This document shows positions 25,345 to 60,107 of a DNA stretch of 64,000 bases, in pieces (the stretch's first letter is position 1; every line of letters begins with the position of its first letter). The notes under the pieces are model-generated. The model saw nothing but the letters and a program-made list of their open reading frames with translations, had not been told where the DNA came from and ran no database searches. Origin of the DNA: Halobellus rarus (lineage in GTDB: Archaea; Halobacteriota; Halobacteria; Halobacteriales; Haloferacaceae); contig NZ_JANHDI010000004.1 in assembly GCF_024494595.1 (NCBI RefSeq), forward strand, positions 62,001 through 126,000, in the 5' to 3' direction. Position numbers and translations under genes: made by a program.

Positions 25345-25524
25345 GGGGCCGTGGCCAAGCCCGGCATGGCGACTGACTCCAGAGGCTTGGCGCCCGGTGA
25401 CGACACTCCAGACTGATATACCGAGCGGCCGACTGATCATCGGCTCGCAATGACGACCCTCTGGAGTACCGAGGCGCGTACCGGAGATATCAGTCGATCG
25501 GGGGTTCAAATCCCTCCGGCCCCA
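25345..25524 (+). tRNA. trnW: tRNA-Trp (CCA) with a 106-nt intron
   Basis: Exon 1 is 25345-25382 and exon 2 is 25489-25524. The acceptor stem pairs GGGGCCG with CGGCCCC. The anticodon stem is ACTGA/TCAGT, the anticodon CCA lies at 25379-25381, the T arm is GGGGG-TTCAAAT-CCCTC, and the discriminator base is A. CCA is not encoded. The exon-intron junctions form a bulge-helix-bulge: CTCC pairs with GGAG, flanked by three-base bulges AGA (25381-25383) and ATA (25487-25489). Cutting after the second base of each bulge gives exactly the mature tRNA. Splicing by the archaeal tRNA endonuclease is family knowledge. Confidence 0.95.
25383..25488 (+). ncRNA. Box C/D guide RNA inside the tRNA-Trp intron
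   Basis: The intron contains box C GTGACGA (25397-25403), box D' CCGA (25421-25424), box C' ATGACGA (25450-25456) and box D CCGA (25469-25472). The guide before D' (GACTGATATA, 25411-25420) pairs with the 3' anticodon stem, and the fifth base before D' faces U39. The guide before D (CTCTGGAGTA, 25459-25468) pairs with the anticodon loop, and its fifth base faces C34. Both therefore obey the N+5 rule for 2'-O-methylation. This agrees with the known haloarchaeal pre-tRNA-Trp system, in which the intron guides methylation of C34 and U39. Confidence 0.88.
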
Positions 25525-53097: not shown

Positions 53098-54231
53098 CTA
53101 CTCATCCGGTTCGGTTTCCATTTCCCGGTCGCGTGCGTCGGCTCCTCGATCGACCTCCGTGGTGCTCGCTCCGTTCAGATCCCCGTCTTTGACCGCCCTG
53201 GCCTGCTGTTCGAGGTCCTCGACGTCCATCTGGGCGGCCTTGTCGATCTCGCCGAGAATCTCCTTGATGTCGTCGAGACCGATGAGTTCGCGGGTCTCGG
53301 CGTCGAAGCTCAGGCTGTCGAGCTGCTGTCCGTCTCCGGCGACGTCGCTGCCGGTGAGTTGCTTTCCGTACCGACCGACCAGCGAGGTGAGCTCCTGGGG
53401 GATGACGAAGGTCGTCGACGCCCCCTGTCCGATGCCCTCGAGCGTGTCCATCCCCTTGTCGATGATCGCGCGCTCGCCCATCGACTCGGCGGACCTCGCG
53501 CGCAGGACCGTCGAAATCGCGTCCCCCTGCGCTTCGAGGATCTGACTCTGTTTTTCACCCTGCGCGCGGATGATGTTCGACTGCTTGTCCCCTTCGGCTT
53601 TCTCGACCGCGCTCCGGCGTTCGCCTTGGGCTTCGAGAATCGTGGCCCGGCGTCGCCGCTCCGCGCCGGTCTGCTGCTCCATCGCGGCCTGAACCTCCTG
53701 GCTCGGGTTGACCTCCCGGACCTCGACGGACTCGACGCGGATGCCCCATTCGTCCGTCGGTTCGTCCAGTTCCTTGCGGATGCGAGCGTTGATCTCTTGG
53801 CGCTTGTTCAACGTGTCGTCGAGGTCCATATCACCCAGTACCGCCCGAAGCGTGGTCTGGGCGAGGTTCGAGACCGCCGTCTTGTAGTCTTCGACCTCTA
53901 GGAACGCTCGCTTCGCGTCCATCACACGGAGGTAGACGACGGCATCCGCCGTCACGGGTGAGTTATCCCGCGTGATCGCTTCCTGTCGCGGCACGTCCAT
54001 CGTCTGGGTCCGCATATCGAACGTGTACGTCCGGGAGACGAACGGCGGAATGAAGTTGATACCCGGCTCGAGTAACGTGCGGTACTCGCCGAACACGGTG
54101 AGCACCTGCCTGTCGTAGGCGTCGACGAACCGGACCATCTGCCAGACTGTCACTGCCGCCAGCACCAGAGCCAACAGCCCGACTATCCCGAGCGAGGGCG
54201 TGCCAATCTGCAGTGGGATCGGATGATACAT
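53098..54231 (-). CDS. SPFH/Band 7 (stomatin/prohibitin) protein
   Basis: 377 residues. An N-terminal membrane helix (about 12-33, SLGIVGLLALVLAAVTVWQMV) precedes the SPFH domain: YDRQVLTVFGEYRTLLEPGINFIPPFVSRTYTFDMRTQTMDVPRQEAITRDN and LRAVLGDMDLDDTLNKRQEINARIRKELDEPTDEWGIRVESVEVREV. A long coiled coil follows (QGERRSAVEKAEGDKQSNIIRAQ ...). The C-terminal half (about 240-377) is acidic. SPFH proteins form rings that organise membrane domains and regulate proteases. The usual partner, a NfeD-like protease or membrane protein, is not adjacent here. Confidence 0.95.
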   Translation of the reverse strand: MYHPIPLQIGTPSLGIVGLLALVLAAVTVWQMVRFVDAYDRQVLTVFGEYRTLLEPGINFIPPFVSRTYTFDMRTQTMDVPRQEAITRDNSPVTADAVVYLRVMDAKRAFLEVEDYKTAVSNLAQTTLRAVLGDMDLDDTLNKRQEINARIRKELDEPTDEWGIRVESVEVREVNPSQEVQAAMEQQTGAERRRRATILEAQGERRSAVEKAEGDKQSNIIRAQGEKQSQILEAQGDAISTVLRARSAESMGERAIIDKGMDTLEGIGQGASTTFVIPQELTSLVGRYGKQLTGSDVAGDGQQLDSLSFDAETRELIGLDDIKEILGEIDKAAQMDVEDLEQQARAVKDGDLNGASTTEVDRGADARDREMETEPDE

Positions 54232-54629
54232 CCCTTGGATGGTCTCTCCCGGAGTGAATCAAGGGGAGACATTTTCATCCCCTGTCGGGTTGTGATTATC
54301 TCAGAGACAGCCCTGAGCGCGTCCGTACCGGTGAGTTTCGCGTGCATTCGTTGCTTCATCGATATCGGCGGCATCCACGGTCGTCTCCGCACCGTCCCCG
54401 ACGGTTTCACGGCCGACTATAGTAGCGTTTGCAACCCATTGCTTATCCGATCGTGCGCAGTCGTTCGATCGAGTGAGTAGAGACGTGCAAACGCGACTAT
54501 AATCAGTACCGGGGGCGACCACGAAACGATAACTATCACCGGATGAGTCCGGCACCACTCGCACACGGACAGCACCCCTGTTTCGAGACAATGATAACGC
54601 AGGCGTCACGTTGGTCGCGACGACAGGCG
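54232..54629. other. 398-bp intergenic region with palindromic element A
   Basis: This region separates the SPFH and hydrolase genes (divergent). Besides the palindromic element listed separately (54419-54500), it contains an ordinary stretch with no gene. Reading frames across it are Arg/Ser-rich and lack family resemblance. An in-frame extension of the hydrolase gene starts at 54543 and was not adopted. Confidence 0.5.
54419..54500. repeat. Dispersed palindromic repeat, copy A
   Basis: ATAGTAGCGTTTGCA at one end and TGCAAACGCGACTAT at the other are inverted copies (14 of 15 positions). Between them is a conserved core with CCCATTGC, CCGATCGTGC and CGATCGAGTGAG. Copies B and C lie at 55535-55618 and 58513-58590. 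The element lies in the intergenic space between the SPFH and hydrolase genes. Confidence 0.8.
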
Positions 54630-55484
54630 ATGCACGACGACGAAGGAACCCGGAGCGTACCGCTGGCGGCGGACAGGCGACTCACGTACGCCGAGTACGG
54701 CCCACCGGGCGGAACGCCGGTGGTCTTCCTCCACGGCACACCGGGGTCCCGCCGTCTCGGAGGCCTGTTCGAGACCACCGCCGAGGACTGTGGCGTCCGG
54801 TTGCTCGCGTTCGACCGTCCGGGGTACGGCCGATCGTCGCCGTGGCCGGATCGGTCGGTCCGGGACGGGGCGCGGCTCGTCGCCGCCGTGCTCGACGATG
54901 CGGGCGTCGACAGCGCCGGAGCGGTCGCGTTCTCGGGCGGTGCCCCGTACGCCCTCGCGGCGGCGGCAACCCGATCGGACCGGCTCGATCGCGTCGATAT
55001 CGTCAGCGGCGCGATGCCCCCAGAGATGATCGAGGATCCGCCTGCGATACAGCGGCTCCTCCGCACGACGGCGACGGCGACGCCGCTGCTGCTCCGCGGT
55101 CTCTTCCGCGGCCAGGCGTGGCTCGCGCGGCACCGCAGTCCGTCGTTCGTCGTCTCCCAGTACACGAGCGAGGGAGCCACAGCGGAACTCTCCGAACGTG
55201 TCGCCGAGATCGTGCGGGCGGACTTCCTCGAAGCGCTCTCCTGTCACCGTCAGGGCGTAGTGACCGAGTTCCGGCACGCGGCGAGCGACTGGAACGTCCC
55301 GCTGGCGGAGATCGACGCGGACGTGCGCCTCTGGCACGGCACACGTGACACCAACGTGCCGATCGATGCCGTTCGCCGCCTCGAAGCGGCGCTCCCGACC
55401 GCCCAGTTACGCGTCCGCGAAGAGGCGGATCACCTCCGAACGCTCCTCGAGAGCGTCCCCGTGATTCTGGACGGCTATCGCTAG
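54630..55484 (+). CDS. Alpha/beta-hydrolase fold enzyme
   Basis: 284 residues. Motifs: oxyanion VVFLHGTPGSRR; nucleophile elbow VAFSGGAPYALA, where the usual Gly before the residue preceding Ser is replaced by Ala (AFSGG instead of GxSxG); acid LWHGTRDTNVP; and His in EEADHLRTLLE. The order is correct for the hydrolase fold, and the Ser-Asp-His triad is intact despite the altered elbow. The substrate is unknown. The start at 54630 (MHDDEGTRSVPLAADRRL) matches the family better than an earlier one. The next gene, an HTH-10 regulator, is 212 bp downstream and not clearly linked. Confidence 0.85.
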   Translation: MHDDEGTRSVPLAADRRLTYAEYGPPGGTPVVFLHGTPGSRRLGGLFETTAEDCGVRLLAFDRPGYGRSSPWPDRSVRDGARLVAAVLDDAGVDSAGAVAFSGGAPYALAAAATRSDRLDRVDIVSGAMPPEMIEDPPAIQRLLRTTATATPLLLRGLFRGQAWLARHRSPSFVVSQYTSEGATAELSERVAEIVRADFLEALSCHRQGVVTEFRHAASDWNVPLAEIDADVRLWHGTRDTNVPIDAVRRLEAALPTAQLRVREEADHLRTLLESVPVILDGYR

Positions 55485-55534
55485 TCCCCCCCGGACGGGA
55501 CCCGTCGATCGATTGCGCCTCTCCGGCGAGCCGA

Positions 55535-55618
55535 ACTGTAGTAGGTACACGACCCATTGCGCGTCCGATCGCACGGAGTCGTGCGATCGAGTGAGCGAAG
55601 ACTCGCAAACGCTACTGC
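55535..55618. repeat. Dispersed palindromic repeat, copy B
   Basis: Aligned with copy A over the whole length, it shares GACCCATTGC, the CCGATCGCAC/GTGCGATCGAGTGAG core and the right end CGCAAACGCTACTG. The left end is diverged (CTGTAGTAGGTACACG), so the terminal inverted repeat is weaker than in A. It lies between the hydrolase and HTH-10 genes. Confidence 0.75.
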
Positions 55619-55696
55619 ACGTGCGGCACGCGAAGCCCCCCGACGGTCAGCACGGGAATTGATATATCGACCTCGCGAACACCGCGTAACGGCGGA

Positions 55697-56341
55697 ATGA
55701 AACGCGTCCAGTTCACGGCGACGTACCCGAAAGAACTCGTGCATCCGCTCCACCGGCAGATCATCGACTCCGGACCCATCAGCAGAGCCGAACTGCTGCT
55801 GTGGAGCCCCACCGCAGAGGCGACGACGTTGTTCTGGTGCGATGGTCCTCCGGACGCCACGGCGGCGGCCGTTCGCGCCATCGACTCGCTTCTCGTCAGC
55901 GACCTCGTCGAGGGTTCCGACGGCACGTACGCGTTCCTCCAGCAGAACGACTACGAGTTCGCGACGGCGTTGTTGGACGCGATCGCGGACGCGCGGGCCG
56001 TCTTCGTCCCGCCGGTAGTGTTCTTCGAAACCGGGAGCGTGCAGTTCGAGGCCGTCGGGGAAGCCGCCGCGCTCAGCGCGTTCTACGCGGAACTCTCGGA
56101 CCTCGGGGAGCTGACGATCGACCGGGTCGAGGAGTTCGAGCGGACGCGTTCGTCCTCACGGCTCACCGACCGGCAGCGAGCGGCGTTGGACGCGGCGGTC
56201 GAGGTCGGGTACTACGAGGTTCCCCGAACCGGTGCGATCGCCGACGTCGCAGCGGCGCTCGACTGTTCGACGAGCACGGCCGGGGAGTTGGTGCGGAAAG
56301 CCGAGGCCGCGGTGATCCGCGAATACGCTGAACCACGGTGA
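55697..56341 (+). CDS. Bacterio-opsin activator (HTH-10) family regulator
   Basis: 214 residues. The N-terminal half is a BAT-like domain (VQFTATYPKELVHPLHRQIIDSGPISRAELLLWSPTAEATTLFWCDG), and the C-terminal third is HTH-10: LTDRQRAALDAAVEVGYYEVPRTGAIADVAAALDCSTSTAGELVRKAE. This is the short haloarchaeal type without PAS or GAF sensors. It probably controls neighbouring metabolic genes, for example the sugar-acid set downstream, but no operator was identified. The stop is followed after 17 bp by a 24-bp tandem repeat. Confidence 0.92.
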   Translation: MKRVQFTATYPKELVHPLHRQIIDSGPISRAELLLWSPTAEATTLFWCDGPPDATAAAVRAIDSLLVSDLVEGSDGTYAFLQQNDYEFATALLDAIADARAVFVPPVVFFETGSVQFEAVGEAAALSAFYAELSDLGELTIDRVEEFERTRSSSRLTDRQRAALDAAVEVGYYEVPRTGAIADVAAALDCSTSTAGELVRKAEAAVIREYAEPR

Positions 56342-56357
56342 CGGGCGGCCGCAGGCC

Positions 56358-56489
56358 GAGGACGCGCCGTCGATGAGCGTCGAGGACGCGCCGTCGATGA
56401 GCGTCGAGGACGCGCCGTCGATGAGCGTCGAGGACGCGCCGTCGATGAGCGTCGAGGACGCGCCGTCGATGAGCGTCGAGGACGCGCCG
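56358..56489. repeat. 24-bp tandem repeat, five and a half units
   Basis: GAGGACGCGCCGTCGATGAG-CGTC repeats five times without a single change, followed by a half unit. It begins 17 bp after the stop of the HTH-10 gene. All reading frames are open, giving spurious 8-residue peptide repeats such as MSVEDAPS, so no protein should be called here. Perfect units suggest recent expansion or contraction. Confidence 0.92.
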
Positions 56490-56773
56490 CCGGTCCCCGC
56501 CGCCGCCTCCGACGCTGTGAACGGATCGGGGTATCGACACGCCGGGGCAGTCGCTACGTATCTCAATAACACCTAGTACACAACCCCACATATATGAATC
56601 CAGTATATATAATATTTTAAATGTATTTTATCGGCCCGAAATTGATAGTATGTTACTCGGCGCAGCGTGAGTCCGTAAATTCGTCCGTCGACGCCGCGAC
56701 CCCGCGGCCTCGCACGCGATTTTTCCCTTCGCTCGCCGTGTCTGCGTCCCCTCGACAGAGATCAGCGACCGGA

Positions 56774-56784
56774 AACGATTAATC
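56774..56784 (+). promoter_or_regulatory. TATA-like box of the universal stress protein gene
   Basis: ACGATTAATCC lies 23-33 bp before the ATG at 56807, the right distance for leaderless transcription. Confidence 0.45.
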
Positions 56785-56806
56785 CAGTTCGGGGTATTGA
56801 ACGGGT

Positions 56807-57256
56807 ATGGCTCTCGAAACGATCCTGGTGGCTGTCGGACCCGGAGACGCGAATCGCGCCGAGGAGATGGCGCAGACGAGTATCGATATCGCGGGGCCGT
56901 CCGGTGCTCGAATCGTGCTGACTCACGTATTTACCCGGGACCAGTACGACGAGACGGTCGAGCGGCTGAACGTGGCGGATGGGGCCGAGGTATCGCCGAA
57001 CGAGGTCGCGAGTCAGCACGCGACGATACACACGATCGCGGAGAGACTGGACGAGAACGGAATCAGATACGAGATCAGAGGGTCAGTAGGAGAACACGAC
57101 GAAGAGATTATCAGTATCGCGACAGAGACGAAGTCGGATCTCATCATCGTCGGCGGACGGGAGCGCTCTCCCACGGGCAAGGCCGTGTTCGGCTCGACCG
57201 CGCAAAAGGTCCTGTTGTCCGCCCCTTGCCCAGTCACGTTCGTCAAGGGAAAGTAG
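56807..57256 (+). CDS. Universal stress protein A family
   Basis: 149 residues, a single Usp domain. It starts MALETILVAVGPGDANRAEE, contains RIVLTHVFTR, and ends with the nucleotide-binding motif GGRERSPTGKAVFGSTAQKVLLSAPCPVTFVK. This includes the GxGxxG...GS pattern (here with R and E in place of some Gly), so ATP binding is likely but not certain. USPs are induced under stress and protect cells by unclear means. It lies between the regulator and the sugar dehydrogenase, each probably with its own promoter. Confidence 0.93.
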   Translation: MALETILVAVGPGDANRAEEMAQTSIDIAGPSGARIVLTHVFTRDQYDETVERLNVADGAEVSPNEVASQHATIHTIAERLDENGIRYEIRGSVGEHDEEIISIATETKSDLIIVGGRERSPTGKAVFGSTAQKVLLSAPCPVTFVKGK

Positions 57257-57388
57257 TACCGCTCCGGACGTGGGTGTCGTCGTCTCGTGGTTCCCGGTAT
57301 CGTGACATCTGTACGGAGGCTGTATTCGCTCGTCGGGAGCCGCGCTGCCGTGACTGAAGCGTTCGACGGGTATGAGGTCCCAGGGGAG

Positions 57389-57422
57389 CGTTTATGTTCG
57401 GCGCGGATGGTGGGCACGTATG
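57389..57422 (+). promoter_or_regulatory. TATA-like box of the XacA-like gene
   Basis: GCGTTTATGTT places TTTATG at 57391-57396, 24-29 bp before the ATG at 57420, which supports a leaderless transcript and the chosen start. Confidence 0.5.
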
Positions 57423-58505
57423 GAGCTCGATGCAGTTCTCGAAGACAGCTGTGCGCGTGATTGGCAGACGGTCACTCCCGATTCCGTAGACGAGGTCAGA
57501 TTCGCCGTCATCGGGCTGGGCTGGTTCACCAAGGGTCGTGCATTGCCGGCGCTGGAGAAGAGTGACCGCTGTGAGCCATCGGTGCTGGTCAGCAGTTCGA
57601 CCGAGAAAGCAGAACGCGTCGCGGCCGATACGGAGGGGGCCGAACGGGGAATAACGTACGACGAGTTTCACGACGGCGTGGCGCGGGACGCGTACGACGC
57701 CGTGTACATCGTCACGCCCAATGCGCTCCACCTCGAGTACGTCGAGACCGCGACCGCCTTCGGCAAGGCCGTCCTCTGTGAGAAGCCGATGGAGCGCGAC
57801 AGCGAGCGAGCGAGTGAACTCCGCGACGTCGCGGCCGCAGCGGACGTCGACCTCATGATCGCCTACCGGATGCAGACCGAACCGACCGTCCGTCGGGCCA
57901 GAGAACTCATCGCCGGCGGCTACATCGGCGATCCGATGTCCGTCACCGGCGATATGTCACAGCGGTTGCTCGACCGCGTCAATCCCGATCCCGACCAGTG
58001 GCGGCTGAACGAGACGCTGGCCGGCGGAGGGGCGCTGTTCGACATCGGGATCTACCCGCTCAACACCGCGCGGTTCCTCCTCGAGGAGGACCCGATCGCG
58101 GTGACGGGAAACGTCTCCAGCACGCACGAGGCGTTCGACGACGTCGACGAGACGGTGGCGTTCTCCGTCGAGTTCCCCGGAGAGGTGTACGCCCAGTGCT
58201 ACGCCAGCCACAACGCCCGACAATCGTCGGGAATCACCGTTACCGGTACCGCGGGGCAGGTTCGAATCGAGCCCGCCTTCTTCCAGGACCAGGCACGGCA
58301 ACTCCACATCTCGCGGGGCGACAGTCGCGCTTCGATCACCGTCACGGCGGTCGATCAGATGCGAGAGGAGTTCGACTACTTCGCCGATCGGCTCCGCGGA
58401 GCGAAACCGATCGGTCCCGACGGCGACCACGGACTCGTGGATATGCGCGCGATGGAGGCCGTTTACGAGGCCGCCGAGTCGGACCGCTGGATCACCGTCG
58501 ACTGA
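57420..58505 (+). CDS. Gfo/Idh/MocA sugar dehydrogenase, XacA (xylose/arabinose dehydrogenase)-like
   Basis: 361 residues. An N-terminal Rossmann domain starts VRFAVIGLGWFTKGRALPAL. The GFO/IDH/MocA core then has the highly conserved ITYDEFHDGVARDAYDAVYIVTPNALHLEYVETAT and LCEKPMERDSERA, in which the Lys is catalytic. The C-terminal substrate domain holds DIGIYPLNTARFLLEEDP. The sequence is very close in pattern to Haloferax xylose/arabinose dehydrogenase (XacA). It would oxidise pentose to the lactone, starting oxidative sugar breakdown. The TATA box at 57391 fits this ATG. Neighbours (aldolase, aldehyde dehydrogenase, sugar-binding protein) support the role. Confidence 0.85.
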   Translation: MELDAVLEDSCARDWQTVTPDSVDEVRFAVIGLGWFTKGRALPALEKSDRCEPSVLVSSSTEKAERVAADTEGAERGITYDEFHDGVARDAYDAVYIVTPNALHLEYVETATAFGKAVLCEKPMERDSERASELRDVAAAADVDLMIAYRMQTEPTVRRARELIAGGYIGDPMSVTGDMSQRLLDRVNPDPDQWRLNETLAGGGALFDIGIYPLNTARFLLEEDPIAVTGNVSSTHEAFDDVDETVAFSVEFPGEVYAQCYASHNARQSSGITVTGTAGQVRIEPAFFQDQARQLHISRGDSRASITVTAVDQMREEFDYFADRLRGAKPIGPDGDHGLVDMRAMEAVYEAAESDRWITVD

Positions 58506-58512
58506 GACCGGC

Positions 58513-58590
58513 GTCGTAGCGTTTGTATCTCTTCGCGCATCCGAACCGCGCGATCCTCTGTGATCGAGCGGACGACTTGCAAACGCCGCG
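58513..58590. repeat. Dispersed palindromic repeat, copy C
   Basis: GTAGCGTTTGTATCTCTTCG at the left and CTTGCAAACGCCGCGA at the right match the ends of copy A, with a core of CGCGCATCCG and GTGATCGAGCG. The terminal inverted repeat is GCGTTTG/CAAACGC. It lies between the convergent ends of the XacA-like gene and the aldehyde dehydrogenase gene. Confidence 0.7.
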
Positions 58591-58625
58591 AGTTTCGCCG
58601 GTTCACCGAGGAGTACCGACCGATC

Positions 58626-60107
58626 TCAGGCGTTGAACCCCTGGTGGAAGCCGACGAGTTTCGATCGCGAGAAGTGTTCGACCGCGTACTTGATTCCCTC
58701 TTTACCGACCCCCGAGTCCTTGAATCCGCCGTAGGGCATATGATCCGCCCGGAATCCGCTGACGGTGTTGATGTTCACGCCGCCGGCGTCTATCTCGTCG
58801 GCCGCGCGTTTGGCGCGATCGATGTCCTGGGTGAACAGGCCGGCCTCGAGGCCGTACTCGGTGTTGTTGGCCTCCGCGATCGCTTCCTCGAAGTCCTCGA
58901 CCGCGATCACGGGGACGAGCGGACCGAACGTCTCCGCTTTCGCCGCGGGCATATCGGGCGTCACGTCCGAGAGGACGGTCGGTTCGAACGTCCGCGGCCC
59001 GAGATCACCGCCGTAGTCGCCGCCACACTCGACGGTCGCACCGGCTTCGACGGTCGCCTCGAACAGTTCGACGACGGTCTCGAACTGGTCGTCGTCGACC
59101 ATCGAGGCGACGTCCGTGCCCGCCTCGAACGGATCGCCGACCGTGAGTGACTCGGCGGCGTCGACGAGCGCGTCGACGACTTCGTCTTCGATGTCCTCGG
59201 GGACGAGGACGCGCTCGACGCTGTTACACACCTGACCGGCGTTCGAACAGGCGCCACCGACGACCTGCGCCGCCGCCGCTTCGATGTCCGTGTCGCGCCA
59301 GACGATCGTCGGATCGTTGCCGCCGAGTTCCAGCGTCACTTCGGTCATCCCGCTGTTGTTCGCGAGGTACTTGCCGACCGACGTGGACCCGGTGAAAGAG
59401 ATGGCCTCGACCGCCTCGTGGTCGAGGATGGCGTCACCGACAGTCGAACCGGATCCGGTGACGAGGGTGAACAACCCGTCGGGGACGGAGGCGTCGATCG
59501 TGTCGGCGGCTTCGGCCAGGCATTCGAAGAGCGCCACGGCCGTGAGTGGGGTGTTACTCGCCGGCTTCCCGACGACGCTGTTGCCCGCTGCCAGGGCCGG
59601 CCCGACCTTGTGGACCATCAGGTTCAGCGGGAAATTGAACGGCGTGATGGCGGCGACGACCCCGAGCGGTTCGCGCTGGGTGAAACAGTGGTCCTTCGCG
59701 AAGCCTCGCTGGGCGTCCATCGGGACGTACTCACCGAACATCCGCTTCGCCTGTTCGGCCGAGAGATCCAGGGTCTGAACGGCGCGGTCGACCTCACCGC
59801 GAGCGTCGGGCAGCGGCTTCCCCTGTTCGCTGGTGAGAATGCGTGCGATCTCGTCGGCGCGCTCCTCTACCGCCCGGGCGGTCGCAGAGAGAAGCTCGTA
59901 CCGTTCGTACGCCGACAGATCCGATTCCTCGAAGGCAGCTTCCGCGGCGTCGATGGCTTCCGCCACCTGGCTCTCCGTGGCCATCGGGACGGACCCGACT
60001 CGTTCCCCGTCGTACGGGTGAACGACGTCGGCCCGTTCGTCGGCGTCGACCCACTTGCCACCGATCAGCATCCGCTTGTCGAGACGTGTGACTGCCTGCT
60101 GACTCAT
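58626..60107 (-). CDS. Aldehyde dehydrogenase (NAD(P)+)
   Basis: 493 residues. Oxidises an aldehyde to its acid in the cytoplasm. Conserved elements: the NAD(P)-binding ITPFNFPLNLMVHKVGPALAAGN and the Rossmann GS loop FTGSTSVGKYLA; ELGGNDPTIV with the catalytic Glu; and the nucleophile Cys294 in NAGQVCNSVERV. The cluster context (sugar-acid pathway) suggests 2-oxoglutarate semialdehyde, glycolaldehyde or lactaldehyde as substrate. The start at 60107 gives MSQQAVTRLDKRMLIGGKW, a typical N-terminus. It is divergent from the aldolase gene with an AT-rich shared promoter region. Confidence 0.93.
   Translation of the reverse strand: MSQQAVTRLDKRMLIGGKWVDADERADVVHPYDGERVGSVPMATESQVAEAIDAAEAAFEESDLSAYERYELLSATARAVEERADEIARILTSEQGKPLPDARGEVDRAVQTLDLSAEQAKRMFGEYVPMDAQRGFAKDHCFTQREPLGVVAAITPFNFPLNLMVHKVGPALAAGNSVVGKPASNTPLTAVALFECLAEAADTIDASVPDGLFTLVTGSGSTVGDAILDHEAVEAISFTGSTSVGKYLANNSGMTEVTLELGGNDPTIVWRDTDIEAAAAQVVGGACSNAGQVCNSVERVLVPEDIEDEVVDALVDAAESLTVGDPFEAGTDVASMVDDDQFETVVELFEATVEAGATVECGGDYGGDLGPRTFEPTVLSDVTPDMPAAKAETFGPLVPVIAVEDFEEAIAEANNTEYGLEAGLFTQDIDRAKRAADEIDAGGVNINTVSGFRADHMPYGGFKDSGVGKEGIKYAVEHFSRSKLVGFHQGFNA

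Follow-up and report, generated by a model that had tools for sequence, protein, structure and literature searches.

A TA-inserting palindromic miniature element widespread in haloarchaea, with three relic-like copies in Halobellus rarus and a probable IS630-type partner

Short non-coding mobile repeats are described in both bacteria and haloarchaea. The pneumococcal repeat RUP is described in PMC3049150 as 107 bp long and present in 110 copies in one strain, with a target duplication, predicted folding and new insertions that are called slow; the mover proposed there is IS630-Spn1, acting in trans. Transposition of IS630-type insertion sequences (ISs) duplicates a TA dinucleotide, as stated in PMC2170065, whose references include Tenzen and Ohtsubo 1991, a paper that gives in its title a preference of IS630 for CTAG. 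For Haloquadratum walsbyi, PMC3119063 describes miniature inverted-repeat elements (MITEs) that have only terminal bases in common with their parent transposon. We analyzed 64,000 nucleotides of Halobellus rarus (the window, meaning this whole stretch of DNA), in which an earlier note, made from the letters alone, had proposed three copies, A, B and C, of a palindromic element of about 80 bp. Our analysis indicates that these are probably decayed copies of a MITE that inserts at TA and was moved in trans by an IS630-type transposase, the likeliest candidates being ISNpe3/ISNamo16-like.

All three proposed copies were recovered and belong to one family. A profile built from 120 unique copies scored them at 31.5–75.9 bits, against a best score of 13.7 bits in 30 Markov-simulated windows (1.92 Mb), so that chance is rejected. 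Further copies, on whose existence the earlier note had made its reading depend, occur at no fewer than 34 places in the source genome at E ≤ 0.01 (3.66 Mb; 150 of 3607 candidates scored with a covariance model, distinct places counted from its listing). The end pair GCGTTTG...CAAACGC was matched in this genome 9 times forward and 8 times in reverse, where controls yielded 0 and 1; these pattern controls, together with the simulated scores, rule out chance similarity as the origin of the three copies.

The element is multicopy and has been mobile, as indicated by three independent empty sites, two of which show an exact duplication of the target TA, the type of duplication made by the presumed partner; the third is compatible with it. 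Comparison of flanks with all fetched loci yielded the two exact cases: L183 versus L272 (AGAATA-TA-GAATC against GGAATA-TA-element-TA-GAATT) and L210 versus L073 (AATC-TA-GTT against AATC-TA-element-TA-GTT). The third site is that of the L187 copy in genome G262, which interrupts a conserved gene and is the one insertion into a gene that was seen. The filled site reads CGAGC-TA-element-TA-GTC. CGAGCTnGTC is the uninterrupted reading, found in ten relatives and in a paralog within G262; the paralog contains a 194-amino-acid open reading frame (ORF), and at the corresponding place in L187 no ORF of at least 80 amino acids was found. Thirteen further places in G262 are 98–100% identical to the L187 copy and are thus recent. 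The age that the earlier note ascribed to the copies accordingly fits those in the window, but the family also has young members. Site C is empty in five relatives of the same genus in which its gene pair is adjacent (G002, G005, G008, G014 and G015). In a sixth genome, G004, the left gene of C is elsewhere, and the aldehyde dehydrogenase gene has a different copy nearby (L139:992-1070), whose flanks could not be aligned with those of C. Comparison shows the mobility of the element, its boundaries, the TA rule and its target preference.

Among 72 copies with intact ends, C precedes the left TA in 53 and G follows the right TA in 55, with both in 38; the target is mainly C-TA-G. This tetranucleotide is scarce in the window, where it occurs 17 times against 43.8 expected from the window's trinucleotides. 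Ten of the 17 lie inside predicted ORFs, which cover 74% of bases, as do 32 of 87 in 26 named loci, where ORFs cover 67%; ORFs were called by a simple composition rule, without annotation. Only 7 of 118 copies lie mostly (>80%) inside predicted ORFs, fewer than target scarcity alone would give, which suggests selection as well. The scarcity of CTAG, greater within genes, and the selecting out of insertions into genes would explain why copies persist mainly between genes. No orientation rule is apparent, the 80 copies with both neighbours called lying between tandem (37), convergent (27) or divergent (16) genes.

The element is widespread. At E ≤ 0.001 it was found in at least 12 of 17 genomes of the genus, the source genome included, and in at least 17 of the 40 genomes searched; at E ≤ 1e-6 matches occur in at least 73 of 243 genomes and at least 25 of 73 genera of the order. 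All these genome counts are lower bounds, since the covariance-model searches capped the candidates scored in each genome. Plasmid records were compared by DNA similarity. Copy A matches 39 places on 6 of them, in 5 of which the best place carries no annotated gene (the gene tables being incomplete), and the L187 copy, which comes from another family, has 207 matching places spread over 52; among the 40 records listed for the latter, Natrinema, Haloarcula and Natronorubrum lead, and the named records listed are haloarchaea. One of these plasmids, EU080937.1 of haloarchaeon TuA4, holds 8 places, of which the best matches the G262-type element over 88 bases with 100% identity. Carriage by viruses was considered and rejected, as no match was found in phages or, with the exact end pattern, in viral contigs. 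Copies cluster beyond random placement in G006 alone (26 of 5000 random placements reach the observed value) and not in G004, G262 or the source genome, in a test that used listed places only (27 of 34 in the source genome) and several estimated contig sizes. Within the literature searched, with most subscription journals, supplements and ISfinder outside its scope, we recognised no description of the family, including under MITE, IS630 and haloarchaea combined; among known kinds of mobile DNA, the element stands as a new and widespread example.

The core, TAGTAG(C)...(G)CTACTA, measures 80 bp and sits between two TAs; 102 of the 120 unique copies fit, free of gaps, into 94 columns, which correspond to the core with fixed flanks (94 nt). 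It is short, lacks coding capacity and is bounded by terminal inverted repeats, all features of a MITE. Bases of the outer stem vary by lineage with pairing kept, reading GCGTTTGCAA/TTGCAAACGC in Haloferax and Halobellus and GCAACTGAAA/TTTCAGTTGC in genus g14. In 47 copies chosen for diversity, the outer stem of 18 pairs was 92.0% paired, 90.7% of outer cells were paired against a shuffled mean of 82.5, and 89 cells carried double changes, against a shuffled mean of 30.6 and at most 18 in slid controls; further pair types, one of five measures, did not exceed shuffles (193/500). Because g14-type and other copies differ in inner-stem register, the inner stem was counted on two sets: 22 g14-type copies (set A3) gave 7 double-change cells against 0.8 shuffled, and 33 other copies (set A4) gave 12 against 3.4, with no excess of pair types in either (56/500 and 82/500 shuffles). 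All these counts include the effect of shared descent. The covariation check that the earlier note had proposed thus finds both stems covarying, so that something keeps the hairpin, and we read this as maintained palindromy, not as proof of an RNA. A known structural RNA was considered and rejected: Rfam 15 gave no covariance-model match at gathering score at the copies in the window, and for 18 copies of the source genome the covariation term of RNAalifold was unfavourable. Folded as single-stranded DNA, copy A reached a z of −4.8 and copy B −2.7 (2 of 200 shuffles as good); copy C, at −0.8, folds no better than shuffles.

Two variants of this architecture were encountered. L219 is a longer version of about 122 nt, its central part being extended between ends of the same kind. 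In L311 and L312 (both G071), two near-identical copies stand in tandem with a single N at their junction; these pairs were set aside as probable scaffolding artefacts.

The candidate partner is a subfamily of IS630 elements. Ends reading TATAGTA...TACTATA (at most one mismatch each) lie about 1.05 kb apart at 11 of 30 PF13358 loci, and the same pair bounds 21 of another 30, which were obtained by searching 148 genomes of the family at the protein level. These elements, of about 1.06 kb, carry two ORFs with helix-turn-helix (HTH) domains and DDE_3, match NCBIfam IS630, and have plasmid relatives annotated ISNpe3 or ISNamo16; C precedes their target in 24 of 30 cases and G follows it in 21 of 30. 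The MITE has ends in common with this subfamily, namely TATAGTA(G), with the terminal octamer TATAGTAG, and a box at bases 21–28. That box, ATTGCTCA, is present with at least 7 of its 8 bases in 27 of 28 IS 3' ends and is weaker at the 5' end, where 12 of 28 hold 6 bases; 40 of 47 MITE copies carry at least 6 of 8 bases at this offset in their better arm, a level that about 1.2% of shuffled arms reach. As the 28 IS ends had been picked for TATAGTA-like termini, the box alone provides an unbiased comparison. A derivation of each MITE arm from one IS630 end became less likely, since the best arms match the IS 3' end and the match to the 5' end is weaker. When 16 other IS630-related loci were scanned, in none was the transposase domain flanked by ends of this kind; two chance end pairs, in L315 and L267, had unlike ends. 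Of the 12 MITE-positive genomes of the genus, 6 carry the subfamily, in one case at 56% identity and in several as broken or partial copies; it occurs in none of 5 MITE-negative ones, two of which hold relatives of 39–40% identity and two of which are less than 75% complete. The source genome itself retains one subfamily copy, with an in-frame stop and one end found.

In the mechanism we favour, the near-perfect 80-bp palindrome TAGTAG...CTACTA inserts into TA, preferably C-TA-G, duplicating the TA. Trans-acting IS630-type (Tc1/mariner) transposases would do the cutting and pasting, with haloarchaeal ISNpe3/ISNamo16-like ones as the leading candidates; these would recognise the terminal TATAGTAG together with the box near ATTGCTCA, at bases 21–28. 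Genomes would then lose the transposase and keep copies as slowly eroding relics, the state that the window appears to represent.

Several observations weigh against this explanation, most of them concerning the partner. It was not found where copies are young: G262, with the freshest copies, holds a PF13358 fragment only. No PF13358 match was obtained in 9 of 17 genomes searched, all nine bearing the MITE (G004, G006, G245, G283, G029, G052, G257, G071 and G060); 6 of the 12 MITE-positive genomes of the genus are without the subfamily, and in Haloferax G143, which has seven matches to it, the MITE was not found at E ≤ 1e-6. Nor was any autonomous element bearing the MITE's 17-bp termini (at most one mismatch) seen in G006 or G262, where facing ends 0.7–3.5 kb apart join, as judged by eye, separate complete copies; one G262 pair, with ends 1.3 kb apart, is an exception, and no transposase-like ORF lies between. 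The termini are also imperfectly alike. Exact TATAGTAG stands in 26 left and 25 right arms of the 47 chosen copies and in 7 of 28 IS 5' ends, most of which read TATAGTAA; the bases separating octamer and box are not the same in MITE and IS; and similarity over bases 9–35 is significant for some arms only, the best arm being reached by 0, 4 and 10 of 2000 shuffles in three lineages and by 129 of 2000 for G216. At the L187 site, moreover, n is G (CTGG) in 8 of 11 uninterrupted sequences and CTAG is found in only 1 of 11, so that the TA rule rests mainly on L183/L272 and L210/L073. The absence of a partner weighs against the ISNpe3-like subfamily as the current driver, not against an IS630-type mechanism. 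With several MITE-rich genomes lacking an intact subfamily IS630, and with no 17-bp-ended autonomous element seen in two of them, a present driver can only be proposed. Genomes without a partner are most simply read as having lost it after bursts, and the resemblance of the ends makes ISNpe3-like elements the likely partner.

The same absences are what a different, perhaps single-copy, host-encoded transposase would lead one to expect, if it followed the same TA/CTAG rule and moved the palindromes as an archaeal counterpart of RAYT. Such a transposase would explain the fresh copies in G262, the many copies in G004 and G006 and the missing autonomous element, yet the terminal octamer or heptamer, the TA/CTAG target and the offset of the box are those of the IS630 subfamily, and IS loss after a burst is an ordinary explanation; we regard a host transposase as unlikely. 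A bolder form of this idea is that the palindrome spreads across haloarchaea with no autonomous partner in its host, a shared transposase without flanking ends reading the hairpin or its half-sites, and selection or hairpin-templated repair keeping the stems. This we hold to be distinctly improbable; if true, a partner-less palindrome would be an archaeal, TA-type analogue of the REP/RAYT system.

Maintained stems could alternatively mean that the element is kept as a functional hairpin, whether RNA element, terminator, or protein or cruciform site, its mobility being secondary. Covariation in both stems and the good folding of A, with moderate folding of B, speak for this; the lack of an orientation rule, the poor folding of C, the non-conservation of site C, the missing Rfam match and the RNAalifold result speak against it, and covariation could also arise if both ends track one transposase, or from lineage founders. 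We consider a primary hairpin function very improbable. The earlier note's comparison with repetitive extragenic palindromes (REPs) holds in so far as the element is structured, with both stems covarying. REPs are short hairpins with a one-sided tag and are not known to duplicate TA. The two-sided, IS630-like ends of the haloarchaeal element and the TA duplication at its empty sites are therefore not REP features, nor is its length of 80 bp, against 20–40 bp for REPs as described in PMC3733652, where "archae" occurs in the reference list only. Movement of a REP/REPIN-type element by a Y1 (HUH) tyrosine transposase is suggested by its palindromic, intergenic, multicopy nature and by GTAG...CTAC at its two ends, which recalls GTAG-tagged REPs, and hardly merits credence.

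The reading we prefer, that of a decayed IS630-type MITE, agrees with the condition of the window copies (Table 1), which look like relics. Copy A has nearly intact ends (TATAGTAGCGTTTGCA / TGCAAACGCGACTATA), flanking TAs at 54418-54419 and 54500-54501, and an outer C at 54417. Copy B keeps its central palindrome and right end, its left terminal repeat being eroded; a partial B-like copy occurs at the corresponding place in G010 (Halobellus limi). Copy C has retained its end repeats, with an eroded interior and its flanking TAs lost. The GATCGAG core that the earlier note had reported is present in all three copies, and the GCGTTTG...CAAACGC ends hold for A and C; B has the right CAAACGC only, its left end reading GGTACACG. 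Its description of the copies as intergenic with different neighbours stands, A being flanked by divergent, B by tandem and C by convergent genes (ORFs and Pfam matches).

Table 1. Copies of the element in the window and the genes beside them (window coordinates).
Feature	Coordinates	Strand	Basis or score
MITE copy A	54420..54499	+	80 bp; covariance model 96.2 bits; profile 75.9 bits
MITE copy B	55539..55617	+	covariance model 75.5 bits; profile 55.8 bits
MITE copy C	58514..58591	+	covariance model 55.1 bits; profile 31.5 bits
Band_7/SPFH gene, left neighbour of A	53098..54231	-	ORFs + Pfam
Alpha/beta hydrolase gene, between A and B	54543..55484	+	ORFs + Pfam
HTH_10 / HVO_0513_N regulator gene, right neighbour of B	55697..56341	+	ORFs + Pfam
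GFO/IDH/MocA oxidoreductase gene, left neighbour of C	57372..58505	+	ORFs + Pfam
Aldehyde dehydrogenase gene, right neighbour of C, convergent	58626..60107	-	ORFs + Pfam

Other features of the window were recorded in passing. Shortly 3' of the HTH_10 gene, at 56357-56492, a 24-bp unit (CGAGGACGCGCCGTCGATGAGCGT) is repeated in tandem about five times, and an AT-rich stretch follows near 56560-56650. For the Band_7/SPFH gene, the start (53900-54300) matches at about 80% identity more than once in each of many genomes of the genus, at several places apiece, which exceeds the expectation for a single-copy gene. The sole Rfam match in the window, a tRNA at 25345-25524, spans 180 bases for a 71-position model, and is therefore probably an intron-containing tRNA gene.

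With these results, an intergenic repeat of many haloarchaeal genera has precisely defined borders, a rule for its insertion and a probable partner. Its copies can serve as insertion markers, and the interrupted gene in G262 shows that the element can inactivate genes. As its target CTAG is scarce in the window and, according to PMC5867850, is methylated to N4-methylcytosine (m4C) in Haloferax volcanii, insertion and methylation can be tested together.

Among described systems, RUP (PMC3049150) offers a close parallel, being a short non-coding repeat with a target duplication, predicted folding and terminal repeats like those of IS630, in its case a resident one. The haloarchaeal MITE differs in being archaeal, 80 bp long, GC-rich in its centre, unrelated in sequence and spread over many genera of an order, and in that its presumed partner is missing from several MITE-rich genomes. 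ISNpe3/ISNamo16 elements resemble it in their TATAGTA(G/A) ends, TA target in a CTAG context and box ATTGCTCA at 21–28 of the 3' end, and differ in their length of about 1.06 kb, two transposase ORFs, asymmetric ends and bases 9–20 unlike those of the MITE. The MITEs, SMRs and PATEs of Haloquadratum walsbyi are likewise short, non-coding, mobile haloarchaeal repeats; as described in PMC3119063, in whose text "IS630" is absent, SMRs and PATEs make no target duplication, and these elements are set apart here by description, not by sequence. GTAG-tagged REPs are also intergenic palindromes with GTAG at an end; those described in PMC3733652 are bacterial, 20–40 bp long and have RAYT as proposed partner. 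Taken together, the features looked for in a MITE are present, and on these comparisons the haloarchaeal element appears to work as an IS630-type MITE does, in the manner of RUP.

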